In this document: in pieces, positions 7,376 to 20,745 of the stretch
Layout: each line of letters starts with the position of its first letter
How positions within the stretch are numbered: position 1 is the first letter of the stretch
Virus record (IMG/VR): IMGVR_UViG_3300047319_001025
Coordinates: 1 to 21,314 of that record
From: a virus
Length of the DNA stretch: 21,314 nucleotides
Strand: one strand, 5' to 3'
Made by a program: the position numbers and the translations under genes
The notes under the pieces: model-generated
The model's input: the letters and a program-made list of their open reading frames with translations, nothing else
The model's database searches: none
Told to the model about the DNA's origin: nothing

Positions 7376-9037
7376 ATGGCCTCGACCATTACCGCGCCGA
7401 ACCGCGAGATCCTCGGCAACAACCCTGCTGCGCTCGCGCTGGACTATTGCACCAACATGTCGGCCGCGAGGGCCGACCTCAACGCCGTCGCCGGAATCGG
7501 AAGCGTCGAGATCGACCTGAAGGGTGCCATCCTCGCGGCGGGCACCGTGCTCGGTGCCTACGCCGGCTCGACTCCGGGCATCACGCTGGACAACTCCAAA
7601 GCAGTTGGTGTGCGCTGGAAGGGCGGCACGCTTACGGCGGTCTGGACCGAGGTGGACCTCCCTCTCGACCTCGACCCGACGTATCCGGTCACGGCGAACT
7701 TCGTCGTATCGAAGAGCGGCGCGACTGCGACTGACGTCGCTTCGATTACGGTTGTCGCATACGCGCAGACCGTGGGGGCGCTCGAAGACGCTGGCGCGAA
7801 CCTCGGGTCTGTCTCGACAGCGCTGACGACTGCTCAGGCCAGCGCCGCAGCGAAGACGTGCACGCTTCTTCAGGCGCAACTCTACCTGCCCCCCACGCCT
7901 CCGGCGCGCCTGTCGATGTCGGTGGTGCCGAGCGGCACGCTCGCGACCGACGACCTCATCATCAACAGCTCCTATCTGACGTACACGAAGCGGCCGGCCG
8001 TGCCGCGCGTGTTCATCGATCTGCGCGCAGCGATTCTCGCCGCCGGAACGCCGATGGCTGCGTTTGCAGACAACGCGGCCTCTCAACCCGGCGTGACGCT
8101 GGACAACACGCACGCCGTTGGCATTCGCTGGAACGACGCTGCGACGCAGGTCGCCATCTGGAGCTCGTTCGAGCTCCCGGCGGACATGGATGTCACGAAG
8201 CCGAGCGTCATCGTCGTGCTTGCGTCAAAGAGCGGCGCGACGGGTGGCGACGCAACGACGTTCGACGTCGGCATCTACGAGCAGGTGGCAGGTGCGCTCG
8301 AGGACGCGACCACGAACCTCGGCGGCACCACGAGTGCCCTCGTCGGCACGGCGACCGCCAAGACGGTTTCGAAGCTCACGCTCGGGCTTGCAGCCAACAA
8401 GTTCACGGCGGGTCCGCACCGCGTGTCTGTGACCATCAAGCCCACGAACGGCACGCTCGGCACCGACGACTGCATCTGCAACGGGTTTTGGCTCGAGTAC
8501 ACGAAGCTCGCCGGGCAGACGCCGATTCTCCCGATCGACTTCAAGGCCGGCGTCCTTGCCGCGGGAACGCCGATGGCGGCATTCTCGGACAACGCAGCGT
8601 CCCAGCCTGGGGTGACGCTCAACAACTCGAAGGCGGTGGGCATTCGCTGGAACGACGCAGCCACCCAGGTGGCCGTGTGGTCCGAGCGCGACTTGCCTCT
8701 GTCGTTCGACACGTCGCAGGCCTCGACGCTGGTCCTCATGGTCAGCAAGTCGGGCGCGACGGCTGCCGACACGTCGCCGTTCACGGTAACCATGTTCGAG
8801 CAGGTGCCTGGCAGTCTCGAAGACGCCGGCCCCACCTTCTCGGGTTCGACCTCGGCCATCGCGTCGCCCACGGCAACGGCGAAGACGTGTTCGCGACTCA
8901 CGATGACCATCCCGGCCAAGACCTTCACCGCTGCGCCTGGACGCATCTCTATCAGCGTCAAGCCGACGAATGGCCTTCTCGGCACGGATGACGTGCTGCT
9001 CTGCGGAGCCTGGATCGAGTTCGTGGCCCTCCCGTAG
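7376..9037 (+). CDS. head-module protein built of three tandem repeats
   Basis: 553 residues from ATG 7376, with AAGGAA upstream. After about 42 leader residues the protein is three copies of one unit starting near residues 44, 212 and 385 (168-173 residues each). Each unit runs I-D-L/F-(K/R)-A, then A-I/V-L-A-A-G-T, G-(I/V)-T-L-(D/N)-N, A-V-G-(I/V)-R-W, S-K-S-G-A-T, G-(A/S)-L-E-D-A and a final (T/S)-D-D motif before an aromatic strand. Composition (Thr, Ala, Ser, Val, few charges) suggests beta-sandwich domains. It occupies the place where Mu-like phages encode the F-type minor head protein, which I do not find. A head fibre, decoration or portal-adjacent structural role is likely by position only. 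I do not recognise the family. Confidence 0.8.
   Translation: MASTITAPNREILGNNPAALALDYCTNMSAARADLNAVAGIGSVEIDLKGAILAAGTVLGAYAGSTPGITLDNSKAVGVRWKGGTLTAVWTEVDLPLDLDPTYPVTANFVVSKSGATATDVASITVVAYAQTVGALEDAGANLGSVSTALTTAQASAAAKTCTLLQAQLYLPPTPPARLSMSVVPSGTLATDDLIINSSYLTYTKRPAVPRVFIDLRAAILAAGTPMAAFADNAASQPGVTLDNTHAVGIRWNDAATQVAIWSSFELPADMDVTKPSVIVVLASKSGATGGDATTFDVGIYEQVAGALEDATTNLGGTTSALVGTATAKTVSKLTLGLAANKFTAGPHRVSVTIKPTNGTLGTDDCICNGFWLEYTKLAGQTPILPIDFKAGVLAAGTPMAAFSDNAASQPGVTLNNSKAVGIRWNDAATQVAVWSERDLPLSFDTSQASTLVLMVSKSGATAADTSPFTVTMFEQVPGSLEDAGPTFSGSTSAIASPTATAKTCSRLTMTIPAKTFTAAPGRISISVKPTNGLLGTDDVLLCGAWIEFVALP
7505..9034 (+). repeat. three tandem coding repeats of about 504-520 bases
   Basis: Units about 7505-8010, 8011-8530 and 8531-9034. 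Units 2 and 3 are closest: both carry A-A-G-T-P-M-A-A-F, D-N-A-A-S-Q-P-G-V-T-L and R-W-N-D-A-A-T-Q-V-A, with clear similarity at the DNA level too. Unit 1 is more diverged. This suggests an older duplication followed by a more recent one. Confidence 0.8.
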
Positions 9038-16957: not shown

Positions 16958-17335
16958 ATGGCAAGCACGACGACCTTCATGTCGTTCATTTACAACTTGA
17001 AGCGCATCGAAGCCGCCCAGAATTCGAACGTCGACATCGACAACAACGCGACGCAGATGATCGGCGACGGCAAGGTCATCGCGATCGCGCAGGGCGTTGC
17101 GACCGTACAGGTCACGGGCGACTTCGTGTTCACGAACGACGACACCGACGCGGCTGGCATGACGTCAGACGTCATCAACGTCAAGACGGCCACGGTGTCC
17201 TTCCTGTTCGGAACCAAGCTCTTCTCGTGTGGCGTGCAGGCAACGAAAGCGTCGGTCAAGTCCACGTCGAAGTCCGGCGAGACGACCATGGCGCTCACGC
17301 TCATCAACACGGAAGCACCGAAGCTCGTCGGATGA
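16958..17335 (+). CDS. tail tube protein (Mu M-like)
   Basis: 125 residues from ATG 16958, with GAAAGG about seven bases upstream and a 63-base spacer after the sheath gene. The size and order (directly after sheath) match Mu gpM. The sequence alternates strands: V-D-I-D-N-N-A around 26, Q-V-T-G-D-F-V-F, then A-T-V-S-F-L-F-G-T and a final T-M-A-L-T-L-I-N-T strand, as expected for the small beta-barrel tube protein of contractile tails. Hexameric rings stack around the tape measure to form the inner tube. Confidence 0.78.
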   Translation: MASTTTFMSFIYNLKRIEAAQNSNVDIDNNATQMIGDGKVIAIAQGVATVQVTGDFVFTNDDTDAAGMTSDVINVKTATVSFLFGTKLFSCGVQATKASVKSTSKSGETTMALTLINTEAPKLVG

Positions 17336-17354: not shown

Positions 17355-17953
17355 GTGGCCAAGTTCTCCCAGATCGCGAAAGGCACCCGAGCGCTAAAGC
17401 AAGTCACTTTCCCGCTGCTGGACGGCGAGACCCAAGCGACGTGCTCTTTGCGCCCGCTCCTCGGATCAGACGATGCAATCGTACTGGCCGAGGCGCGGGC
17501 GTTTGCCGTTTCTAGTGGGGTAGCAGACCCCAAGGACGGCAACCCGCTCTACGAGTTTGGCAAGGCGATTGCTGTCTGTCTCCACGCGTGCGTGGACTCG
17601 GCGAGCGACCCGAAAAGCCCCGAGCCGTACTTCGAGTCGGCCGAGGAGATCCAGGCGGGCCTGGACCGCGAGCGCATCTTCCTCCTATCCGAGTGGCAGG
17701 CGCGGCACCAGGAGTCGGTCTCGCCGCGCCCGTCGTCGTCGAGCGTCGAGCAGTACATCGCGGACATGTACACGATCGCGTCCGCCGCCGAGGGCGAGGA
17801 CCTCCCTTTCGTCTTGTGGCCGCGCAGCAGGCTGGAGAGCTCTTTAGCTTTTTCGGCCAACATGCTTGTGAGCTTACTAGAGCGCAAATCGCCTACTGGA
17901 TCGGACTCCGCCGAGAATGCGAGCGGCTCCGACCCAAGTCCCAAGCTGGATAG
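17355..17953 (+). CDS. predicted -1 frameshift product of the chaperone gene
   Basis: Same start and first 152 residues as the zero-frame product, then a -1 shift at C CCT TTC (17804-17810) into the frame that ends at TAG 17951-17953, adding 47 residues for 199 in total. The new C-terminus includes A-A-Q-Q-A-G-E-L-F-S-F-F-G and later Q-I-A-Y-W-I-G-L-R-R-E, an amphipathic, aromatic helix unlike the Ser-rich zero-frame tail. Both stops lie within five bases of each other just before the next gene. Programmed -1 shifting is a conserved trait of chaperone genes upstream of tape measures (lambda G/GT and many others, including Mu-like phages). A sequencing error could produce the same pattern. Confidence 0.55.
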
Positions 17954-17957
17954 CTGA
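17355..17957 (+). CDS. tail assembly chaperone, zero-frame product
   Basis: 200 residues from GTG 17355, with GGAGG four bases upstream; the reading back to 17229 overlaps the tube gene. Position between tube and tape measure is the classic site of tail assembly chaperones, which coat the tape measure during tube polymerisation and are absent from the finished virion. Residues 1-30 hold a short beta-rich start (F-P-L-L-D-G), with helices at 40-70 and 95-120 and a V-E-Q-Y-I-A-D-M-Y helix around 134-142. Beyond residue 152 the zero-frame C-terminus is Ser-rich and uses rare codons (TTA twice, CTA), while the -1 frame looks more natural. See the frameshift product. Confidence 0.72.
   Translation: MAKFSQIAKGTRALKQVTFPLLDGETQATCSLRPLLGSDDAIVLAEARAFAVSSGVADPKDGNPLYEFGKAIAVCLHACVDSASDPKSPEPYFESAEEIQAGLDRERIFLLSEWQARHQESVSPRPSSSSVEQYIADMYTIASAAEGEDLPFVLWPRSRLESSLAFSANMLVSLLERKSPTGSDSAENASGSDPSPKLDS
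17804..17859 (+). promoter_or_regulatory. -1 frameshift site: slippery heptamer plus stem-loop
   Basis: C CCT TTC at 17804-17810 fits X XXY YYZ in the zero frame, so both tRNAs re-pair after a -1 slip (CCT to CCC, TTC to TTT). Six bases downstream TGGCCG (17817-17822) is perfectly complementary to CGGCCA (17854-17859); the 31-base loop holds a smaller AGCT/AGCT pair. Spacer length and stem position are those of known stimulatory structures. Confidence 0.55.
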
Positions 17958-17960
17958 CCC

Positions 17961-18539
17961 ATGGCCGCGTTCAAGAACGAGCTCTTTCGCGCGCTTGCCG
18001 GCAAGACCGAGAAGCCGGACGACAAGCGCCCGGCGCCACGCGTCGTGGAGCTTCCCGGCGACGCGTTCGCCGACACGTGGGGCGGCAGGCCCAAGCTCGG
18101 CAAGACGGTCAAGGTGGGCCTCCGGCTCACGTCCGCCGCTGACCTCCAGTACTTCCGCACCGAAGCCAGCAAGCGCGCCGTTCGCGCCTTCCCAGAGGAC
18201 GAAGCCCGCCGCGTTGAAGCCTTCCATGACGCCTTCTGTCGCGAGGCGTTGGGGCGGGCGCTCTGCCAGCCTGACGACGCCTCGCTCCCGTTCTGGGACG
18301 TGCAGTGCGACGCCGTGTTCGTTGCGCTGACGCCGGCGGGCGTGCGGCTGCTCTGCGAAGAGTACGAGGTCTTGAAGGCCGCGACCGACCCGCTGGGCGT
18401 CGAGGTCGACGACGAGAGGCTCCACGCGCTCGGCGACCTCATCGCGGCCGGCGACGTCTGGGCGGAGCTGCCGTTCGAGCGGGCGCGCAAGGTGCGCCGC
18501 CTCCTCAGCCGCGCAATTGCAATGATCGAAGGCGGATAG
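17961..18539 (+). CDS. second small tail-assembly protein, unknown family
   Basis: 192 residues from ATG 17961, three bases after the previous stop and in the same frame, with no strong binding site, so translation is probably coupled. The N-terminus is basic and flexible to about residue 40, followed by V-K-V-G-L-R-L and a helix-rich body with A-F-H-D-A-F-C-R-E-A-L-G around 93-104, F-V-A-L-T-P-A-G-V around 122-130, and a final R-K-V-R-R-L-L-S-R-A-I helix. Its place directly before the tape measure suggests it helps tail assembly, perhaps with the frameshifted chaperone. I do not recognise the family. Confidence 0.65.
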   Translation: MAAFKNELFRALAGKTEKPDDKRPAPRVVELPGDAFADTWGGRPKLGKTVKVGLRLTSAADLQYFRTEASKRAVRAFPEDEARRVEAFHDAFCREALGRALCQPDDASLPFWDVQCDAVFVALTPAGVRLLCEEYEVLKAATDPLGVEVDDERLHALGDLIAAGDVWAELPFERARKVRRLLSRAIAMIEGG

Positions 18540-18540
18540 A

Positions 18541-20745
18541 GTGGCCGACATCCGCATTGGTGTCTCCGCTGCCATCGACGGCACCTTCGCTGCCGTCTTC
18601 GGTCAGATCGAAGGCATCAGTTCGAGAGCGCGCGCGAAGGTCTCGGCCGATGCCGCTGCCATGGGCGTTGCGCACGAGGCCGCAGCCTCGAAGTCTGCAT
18701 CAGCAGCCGAGAAGGCTGCCGCGAAGGCTTCCGCGGCCCAAGAGAAGGAATACGCCAAGGCGCTCACCGCAGCCGAGAAGACGGCCGAGAAGAGGGTGGC
18801 GGCCGCAGAGAAGGCGTCAGAAAGGGAACTGTCGGCGGCGCAGCGCAAGGCCACGCAGATCATCAAGGAAGATGAGCGCGTGGCCGCCGCCTCTGAAAAG
18901 TCGGCGGACAAGGCAGCGAAAGCCCAAGAGTCGGCGGCCTCGCGCGCTGTGAAGGCATGGGCGTCTCAGAGCGCATCCAACTTCGCCAACAAGGTTCGCG
19001 GGGCCGGTCGTCTCGGAATGGAAGTCGCTGGAGCCGCGGGCGTCAACCTCGACGTCGGCTCACTCGCAAAGGCGAACTTCGACTTAGAGAGACGCGTCAC
19101 TCAGATCGCGAACAGCGGTTTTCTCGAAGGTGCCGAGGGCGCTGCTGGGGTTCGGCAGGACCCGAACGCGATTCGGGGCGAAGTTCGCAAAGCGGCGAAC
19201 GCTTCTGCGCTCGGCACGAACGAGGTCGCGAGCGGACTCGCAGCGTTCGTTGGCTCGTCGAGCGACCTCGAGACGGGGCGCGCGGTCATGGGTGACCTCG
19301 CGAAGATGTCGAAGGCGATGGGGGCGAACTTCGAGCAGGTGGCCGACGCTGCCGGCGGCGTGGCGAACAAGCTCGGCGACATCCCGGACAAGGGCAAGGT
19401 CGTCGTCGATGTGATGCGCCAGATCGCGCAGAGCGGCAAGCTCGGCGCCTCCGAGATGAAGGACATGGCGGCCAACATTGCCACCATCATTGGCCCCGCC
19501 AACAAGTTCGCGGAGGGCTCCGAAGAGGCGAGTAAGCACCTCATGACGGCCTTCCAGATCACGAAGAAGCTCGGAGGCGTCAAGGGCCCCGCGCAGGCCG
19601 CTACGGCCGTCGCGTCGTTCGTTGGAGACCTGACAAGCAAGAGCGGCATGAAGCACCTTCAGTCGATCGGCGTGAGCGGGATCGACCAGAAGACTGGAAA
19701 GCTCCAGAGCATCGACAAGGTAATCGAGGCCGTCCTCATTCGAACGGGCGGCGACATGGCGAAGATCGGTGGGACGTTCGCCAACAAGCGGAGCAAAGCC
19801 GTCGTCGACGCGTTTAACGACATCTACATGAGCGCTGAGAAGAAAGAGAAGGGCTCCGGCGTCAAGGCGGTAAAGCAGAAGTTCCAGGAGTTCAACGCGC
19901 CGATCTCGGACAAGGACCTCAAGGACTCGCTCGCCGCGACGATGAAGACGACGGAGAGCAAGGCCCAGCTCTTCAACAACAAGCTCGAAGAGATCGCCGA
20001 GCAGGCCGCCGGCAAGTTGGTTCCTGCGCTAGAAAAGCTGGCGCCGCTGATGCTTATGTTAGCCGAACACACGGCCAAGATGGTTACTCTAGTATCCGAG
20101 AACCCCGTCAAGGCTATTATCCTGGCCATCGTCGGCAGCATCGCCAAGGCCAGTATCGGAACGGTCGTGGCGGAGGCCCTTAAGCGCGCTGTCATGGGTG
20201 GCGCGGGAGGCGGTGGCGGAGGTGGCGGAGGTGGCGGCGGGATCGGCGGCAAGGCTGGCGCAGCGATGATTGGCGTTGCTGGCGGCGCAGCCCTCGGAAC
20301 CGCGATCTTGGCGTCAGCGGAAGGGTCGTTGGCGCGCGCCAGCGAGGGCATGGCCTCCGTCCAGGAAGATGCCGAAGCGCTCAAGCAGGCGCGCGGCGCC
20401 GTCAAGTCCGGGGCCATGACGAAGGAGGACCAAACCGCGCTCCTTCAGGCAACTGTTGAGAAGCAAAGTCTTCAGCAGCGCGTCATGGATGCTGAGGAGG
20501 CGGACAGCTTCATCGGTAGCGCGGCGCAGGGGCTACATGTGATTACCGGCGGTCTCTTTCAGAGCGAGGGCGGCAAGTCAGCTGCTCAAGACGCCGGCAA
20601 CCTCGACGAGCTCAAGGAGCAGCTTGCGCAGAGCAAGGCCGTTCAGGAGCGCCTCGTCGAAGCCATGAAGGGCACGCTCACCGTCAAGGTTGTTGGCGGC
20701 ACCACGCAGAACGTCGACTCCGGCAACATCGGCAGCGGCGGTTGA
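18541..20745 (+). CDS. tail tape measure protein
   Basis: 734 residues from GTG 18541, two bases after the previous stop. Residues about 40-140 are a long Ala/Lys/Glu coiled coil. Residues about 175-430 match the helical core of phage tape-measure proteins: N-F-D-L-E-R-R-V-T-Q-I-A-N near 180, a long series with A-L-G-T-N-E-V-A-S-G-L-A-A-F, S-G-K-L-G-A-S-E-M-K-D-M-A-A-N-I-A and a T-A-V-A-S-F-V-G-D-L helix. Hydrophobic segments at about 521-550 and 568-595 flank a 12-Gly run. The protein sets tail length and may help DNA cross the inner membrane. By the usual 1.5 angstrom per residue rule, the tail would be about 110 nm long. Confidence 0.88.
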   Translation: MADIRIGVSAAIDGTFAAVFGQIEGISSRARAKVSADAAAMGVAHEAAASKSASAAEKAAAKASAAQEKEYAKALTAAEKTAEKRVAAAEKASERELSAAQRKATQIIKEDERVAAASEKSADKAAKAQESAASRAVKAWASQSASNFANKVRGAGRLGMEVAGAAGVNLDVGSLAKANFDLERRVTQIANSGFLEGAEGAAGVRQDPNAIRGEVRKAANASALGTNEVASGLAAFVGSSSDLETGRAVMGDLAKMSKAMGANFEQVADAAGGVANKLGDIPDKGKVVVDVMRQIAQSGKLGASEMKDMAANIATIIGPANKFAEGSEEASKHLMTAFQITKKLGGVKGPAQAATAVASFVGDLTSKSGMKHLQSIGVSGIDQKTGKLQSIDKVIEAVLIRTGGDMAKIGGTFANKRSKAVVDAFNDIYMSAEKKEKGSGVKAVKQKFQEFNAPISDKDLKDSLAATMKTTESKAQLFNNKLEEIAEQAAGKLVPALEKLAPLMLMLAEHTAKMVTLVSENPVKAIILAIVGSIAKASIGTVVAEALKRAVMGGAGGGGGGGGGGGGIGGKAGAAMIGVAGGAALGTAILASAEGSLARASEGMASVQEDAEALKQARGAVKSGAMTKEDQTALLQATVEKQSLQQRVMDAEEADSFIGSAAQGLHVITGGLFQSEGGKSAAQDAGNLDELKEQLAQSKAVQERLVEAMKGTLTVKVVGGTTQNVDSGNIGSGG
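20197..20250 (+). repeat. GGN tract coding for a 12-glycine run
   Basis: Codons 20206-20241 are twelve consecutive glycine codons (mixed GGC, GGA, GGT, GGG), with further Gly-rich sequence on both sides. They join the two hydrophobic segments of the tape measure as a flexible hinge. Such tracts are prone to slippage, so unit number may vary between relatives. Confidence 0.75.

Follow-up and report, generated by a model that had tools for sequence, protein, structure and literature searches.

A predicted −1 frameshift exchanging C-termini of near-equal length in a tail-assembly-chaperone-like gene of uncultured Mu-like phages

A single gene located upstream of the tape measure gene in a Mu-like myophage fragment very probably encodes two tail-assembly chaperone isoforms by means of a −1 shift, with the T-like part nested in the G-like reading frame. 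The analyzed fragment, herein referred to as the window, is a virus record of 21,314 bases, and the gene belongs to a group of uncultured Mu-like phages. The prediction draws on features of the sequence: a slippery heptamer, conservation of the −1 frame, access to this frame exclusively by frameshift, openness of both frames, clustering of the two stops, and synteny. A broader reading, given about an even chance, is that the whole family uses a nested form of G/GT, in which C-termini of equal size are swapped, selection acts at the protein level in both frames, and a shared stop-start junction feeds the next tail gene. The following features were identified in the window.

16958..17335, + strand: gene for a putative tail tube protein, assigned by position and size
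17355..17957, + strand: tail-assembly-chaperone-like gene in the zero frame, 200 aa, G-like product, with a GTG start at 17355 and a TGA stop; assigned by position and Foldseek
17355..17810, + strand: N-terminal domain, 152 aa, common to both products; defined by alignment and AlphaFold2 (AF2) pLDDT
17790..17799, + strand: SD-like purine run GAGGGCGAGG, a possible stimulator 5' of the heptamer (suggestive only)
17804..17810, + strand: slippery heptamer C CCT TTC, in frame
17810..17953, + strand: −1 frame tail, 47 aa, predicted T-like helical domain RLVAAQQAGELFSFFGQHACELTRAQIAYWIGLRRECERLRPKSQAG, and stop
17811..17957, + strand: zero-frame alternative tail, 48 aa, a predicted helix followed by a Ser-rich disordered end, and stop
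17817..17859, + strand: 6-bp stem TGGCCG/CGGCCA, present in the window; structure not conserved
17951..17963, + strand: cluster of the −1 TAG, the zero-frame TGA, and the ATG of the next gene at 17961
17961..18539, + strand: 192-aa gene between the chaperone and the tape measure, syntenic in relatives
18541..20745, + strand: tape measure protein gene (phrog_28, E 1e-6)

The window contains a Mu-type portal (Pfam search: PF06074, E 7e-60) and a tail sheath (PHROG search: phrog_165). The gene order sheath, tube, chaperone, 192-aa gene, and tape measure is syntenic in relatives, and the chaperone gene is located, as in the G/GT systems, between the major tail/tube protein and the tape measure. 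No match above threshold was found for the chaperone gene among the Pfam, PHROG, and NCBIfam models, and no family match was found for the 192-aa gene in the same three collections. The AF2 model of the N-terminal domain has a pLDDT of about 88–97 for residues 11–120. In Foldseek searches with this model, 2ob9, the tail assembly chaperone of HK97, came nearest among PDB entries, with a weak resemblance (probability 0.90, E 0.058, TM 0.30/0.51), and BFVD yielded matches to a 'pre-tape measure frameshift protein G' and to several proteins named as tail assembly chaperones. These fold matches point, with moderate confidence, to a tail-assembly chaperone, and the identification is strengthened by the synteny. 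Elsewhere in the window, positions 7376–9037 encode a 553-aa protein with about three similar repeats (AAGTPMAAF...PGVTLDN.KAVGIRWNDAATQVA) and no family match; this is maybe a head or decoration protein.

In total, 13 lineages were found, mostly about 30–45% identical. The close relatives of the window are L002, in which the gene is identical, and L003 (about 91%). A scan for the heptamer together with the LTRAQ pattern identified L013–L018 and L024 (L014 is the same as L009, and L018 the same as L004). A scan with the alignment of the fused protein, in which the heptamer was not demanded, identified L058, L059, L064, L067, and L068. A scan with only the N-terminal domain, blind to the tail, revealed no further true member. 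L019, L021, and L025 in the viral scan, as well as L089, were chance matches and were rejected as members. A tblastn search of the chaperone against named phages returned nothing or weak chance matches only; no relatives were found in the genome contigs searched, where the pattern scan gave chance matches only.

The Mu-type portal was found in 9 of the 13 records searched for it, the remaining four being short records. The contigs of L013, L015, L016, L059, L064, and L003 are 80–100 kb long and carry the Mu-type portal, compared with 36.7 kb for Mu. Two other contigs, L007 and L008, match the window exactly over chaperone residues 1–38, and both stop at residue 38, which is probably an assembly break.

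The in-frame canonical slippery heptamer proposed in an earlier, sequence-only reading of the window is present at 17804–17810, where the zero frame reads CTC CCT TTC GTC and the heptamer (CCCTTTC) encodes Pro-Phe in both frames. Of the 13 lineages, 12 share a canonical X_XXY_YYZ at this codon, 11 with C_CCT_TTC/T and one (L067) with T_TTT_TTC. Four lineages found without demanding the heptamer (L058, L059, L067, and L068) carry it too. The residue preceding the heptamer varies (L, R, or D); nonetheless, its codon ends in C in all 11 of the C_CCT_TTY lineages. The Pro codon at the slip site is CCT, though CCT represents only 12–18% of the Pro codons in these lineages. At other upstream codon positions of these ORFs, an in-frame X_XXY_YYZ was found in only 2 of 2483 cases. 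The chance of the heptamer under synonymous codon choice is 0.026–0.113 per lineage and jointly 10^-14.9 over 12 lineages, a value that treats the lineages as independent and so overstates the improbability. The distance between the slip site and LTRAQ is 21 codons in nearly all lineages. The sole lineage with no canonical heptamer, L064, has G CTT TTA at the slip position (L064:4378–4384) and keeps both tails, with the −1 frame closed two codons 5' of this position; this exception reflects a slip by some other mechanism or an error in the sequence.

The −1 frame runs for 47 codons from 17810 to the TAG at 17951–17953 and yields a 199-aa product; both this open length and the 199 versus 200 residues given in the earlier reading are borne out by the sequence. 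The consensus of the −1 tail is ..AARxAVDLxAYFGxPVxELTRAQVALWxGLR.. (an example of the C-terminal peptide is LVAAQQAGELFSFFGQHACELTR). When the relatives were aligned for the heptamer and both tails, the check proposed along with the earlier reading, the heptamer proved to be kept (12 of 13 lineages) and the −1 peptide was more conserved than the zero-frame tail, with mean pairwise identities over 8 lineages of 0.48 and 0.37, respectively. The most divergent codon phase in the tail is position 3 of the −1 frame (0.50 vs. 0.31 and 0.31), and conservation of the −1 frame is far above what the zero-frame amino acids force (z 18). The window and L003 differ by 16 tail substitutions, of which 5 are silent only in the zero frame and 2 only in the −1 frame; these are too few to decide, and by showing no −1 preference they count against a simple −1 bias. 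The N-terminal/zero-frame half and the −1 tail were modelled apart; the 199-aa product spans two frames. With 13 sequences as the AlphaFold2 input, the 49-residue PF-plus-tail segment was modelled as three helices with a mean pLDDT of 92.7. A Foldseek search with the −1 tail alone gave no informative match.

It is very improbable that the −1 tail is an independent ORF translated by internal initiation, or that the arrangement is a pseudogene or an assembly error. Internal initiation would fit the window itself, where the −1 frame is open upstream and has GTG at 37 and 72 codons 5' of the slip site. However, the −1 frame is closed 1–3 codons 5' of the slip site in five lineages (L017, L018, L024, L058, and L064), so that only a shift reaches the −1 tail there. 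Moreover, in 9 of 14 sequences this frame offers no start codon ahead of the slip site. Together, the closure and the missing starts mean that internal initiation cannot serve the family, and it was rejected. Assembly error was rejected as well, being ruled out by the recurrence of the same arrangement in many independent contigs. As in G/GT, the shifted frame is conserved and reachable only by frameshift.

The zero frame continues for 48 codons past the heptamer to the TGA at 17955–17957. Its tail was described earlier as Ser-rich with rare TTA and CTA codons, and indeed contains 12 Ser in 48 residues, with two TTA codons and one CTA codon (an example of the zero-frame C-terminal peptide is LESSLAFSANMLVSLLER). 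This tail is 39–68 codons long across all lineages, and a recurrent LRPGxxWxxxRTxA....SPELKS was found in most of them. Both frames are open for 39–70 codons past the slip site in every lineage, and the two stops are at most 29 nt apart in all lineages; in the window, the −1 stop lies 4 nt before the zero stop. The predicted swap of C-termini at near-equal length, previously noted for the window as unlike lambda G/GT, is conserved across the family. In the 11 lineages where an ORF of 120 codons or more follows, the next start is located at −17 to +19 nt of the zero stop and at −4 to +12 nt of the −1 stop, and the stop/start junctions often overlap (TGATG, ATGA, or GTGA).

Conventionally, what matters would be the shared N-terminal domain and the −1 (T-like) product alone, and the long zero tail would be a passive by-product of the overlap. 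This view is possible but has clearly less than an even chance. The greater conservation of the −1 frame agrees with it, as do the distal end of the zero tail, which is poorly conserved and predicted to be disordered, and the AF2 confidence of only about 60–70 for the zero-tail helix. However, zero-frame stops were found in none of 12 lineages, whereas 7.0 lineages were expected to have one from the −1 peptide and local codon usage. The joint chance of an open zero frame is about 10^-5.4 (about 4e-6) with the lineages treated as independent and under an imperfect null, as N-domain controls match expectation in the +1 frame and are below it in places in the +2 frame. In addition, the first 20 zero-frame codons are conserved above the shared-ancestry baseline: their identity is 0.135 above the shuffled expectation, compared with an excess of −0.04 to 0.07 in N-domain control stretches and 0.066 in the third frame of the tail. 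Both stops also adjoin the next start. Judged by these comparisons, the zero-frame tail is probably more than a neglected by-product: constraint on its first ~20 codons goes beyond the −1 peptide, and stops are avoided throughout.

The constraint seen on the zero frame over its first ~60 nt could alternatively act on RNA, as a frameshift-stimulating structure, rather than on the peptide; this is unlikely, if less so than internal initiation. GGCC...GGCC stretches recur 3' of the heptamer and pair in several lineages, and the 6-bp stem named in the sequence-only reading exists and is perfect in the window (TGGCCG at 17817–17822 pairs with CGGCCA at 17854–17859). Nevertheless, this stem is not conserved and is probably not the key stimulator. 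RNAalifold across the lineages gave no consensus structure, covariation in the named stem was no higher than in shuffles, and folding 3' of the heptamer did not exceed that of other parts of the gene (mean z 0.11); on these three results, a conserved downstream stem was rejected. A structure near the slip site would also fail to explain the avoidance of stops farther 3'. Upstream of the heptamer, 10 of 13 lineages carry an SD-like 4-mer between −20 and −4, against 6.0 expected (P 0.004), which is suggestive of the dnaX type of stimulation.

For the two-isoform gene, we infer a mechanism that includes the slippage itself, its efficiency, the roles of both ends, and the coupling to the next gene. 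The majority of ribosomes would keep frame and produce the 200-aa G-like protein, the last 48 residues of which would form a helix and a Ser-rich disordered end. A minority would move back by one nucleotide at C CCU UUC, with the P-site pairing moving from CCU to CCC and the A-site pairing from UUC to UUU. Their 199-aa product would combine the same N-terminal domain with a T-like C-terminus made of three helices in a compact fold. On the lambda G/GT model, coating of the tape measure would fall to the N-terminal domain and recruitment of tail tube subunits to the T-like end. With both frames finishing beside the next start, both kinds of ribosomes would arrive at it, which may be why the zero frame is kept open.

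Conserved tail-assembly frameshifting is known for lambda gpG/gpGT and its relatives (Xu, Hendrix and Duda, 2004, as cited in PMC5009743). The gene analyzed here resembles lambda G/GT in lying before the tape measure, in carrying a canonical heptamer for a −1 slip close to its 3' end, and in a predicted pair of products with one start and a common N-terminal domain. In lambda, however, the zero tail has 5 codons and the shifted tail 144, whereas here they have 48 and 47, and the T-like part is nested in the G-like frame. The system is rated as working like lambda G/GT but as a variant, because the defining extension and T homology are both lacking. The shifted product does not extend beyond the G stop (200 vs. 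199 aa), and hhalign detected no homology of the T-like domain to the known T domains of P2 (E') and lambda (T). P2 gpE/gpE+E' is similar in its contractile tail, the −1 slip on a canonical T TTT TTG, and a short helical T part, but differs in a zero tail of 6 codons and a shifted tail of 57. Phage Mu gp41 is similar in the Mu-type portal, sheath, and gene order; unlike here, −2 frameshifting was reported in Mu (PMC5009743), and the Mu zero tail was computed to be short. HK97 provides the closest solved fold to the window model (2ob9), with no sequence match between its chaperone and the window protein, and differs in that its product is extended by the frameshift.

A long dual-frame overlap with a −1 slip has a precedent in SPP1 gp17.5/gp17.5*. 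The gp17.5 protein has 173 aa, 112 of which are common to both products, with a slip on UUUUUUC and a zero tail of 61 codons (PMC6316719). The shifted SPP1 product of 297 aa is nevertheless an extension and not an equal-length swap (PMC6316719). No published equal-length nested case was found in a literature search that covered mainly open-access papers.

Tail-assembly frameshifts are usually detected by seeking a longer second ORF that follows the first. A nested swap of equal length appears in annotation as one ordinary ORF, with the second product hidden, and the 13 lineages provide a heptamer-plus-tail signature for finding such systems. Since one stretch of ~140 nt serves both frames, changes silent in one of them would allow the role of each end, G-only or T-bearing, to be probed on its own.

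A further overlap was observed in gp39 of Burkholderia phage KS10 (L069:2101–2655), for which no frameshift in the tail chaperone was reported in the KS10 paper (PMC2628397). No homology was found between the KS10 +1-frame tail and the −1 tail described here. A +1 (or −2) frame ORF (DPRARLQNWETLARQLSLALRCSLTSLREMPKVQLMAQAADLERLHK..) overlaps the 3' end of gp39, and the zero-frame tail is also open. This +1-frame ORF is about 50% identical to Curvibacter phage TJ1 (L076:199–822) over 44 residues, and KS10 and TJ1 may represent a second, independent nested arrangement.
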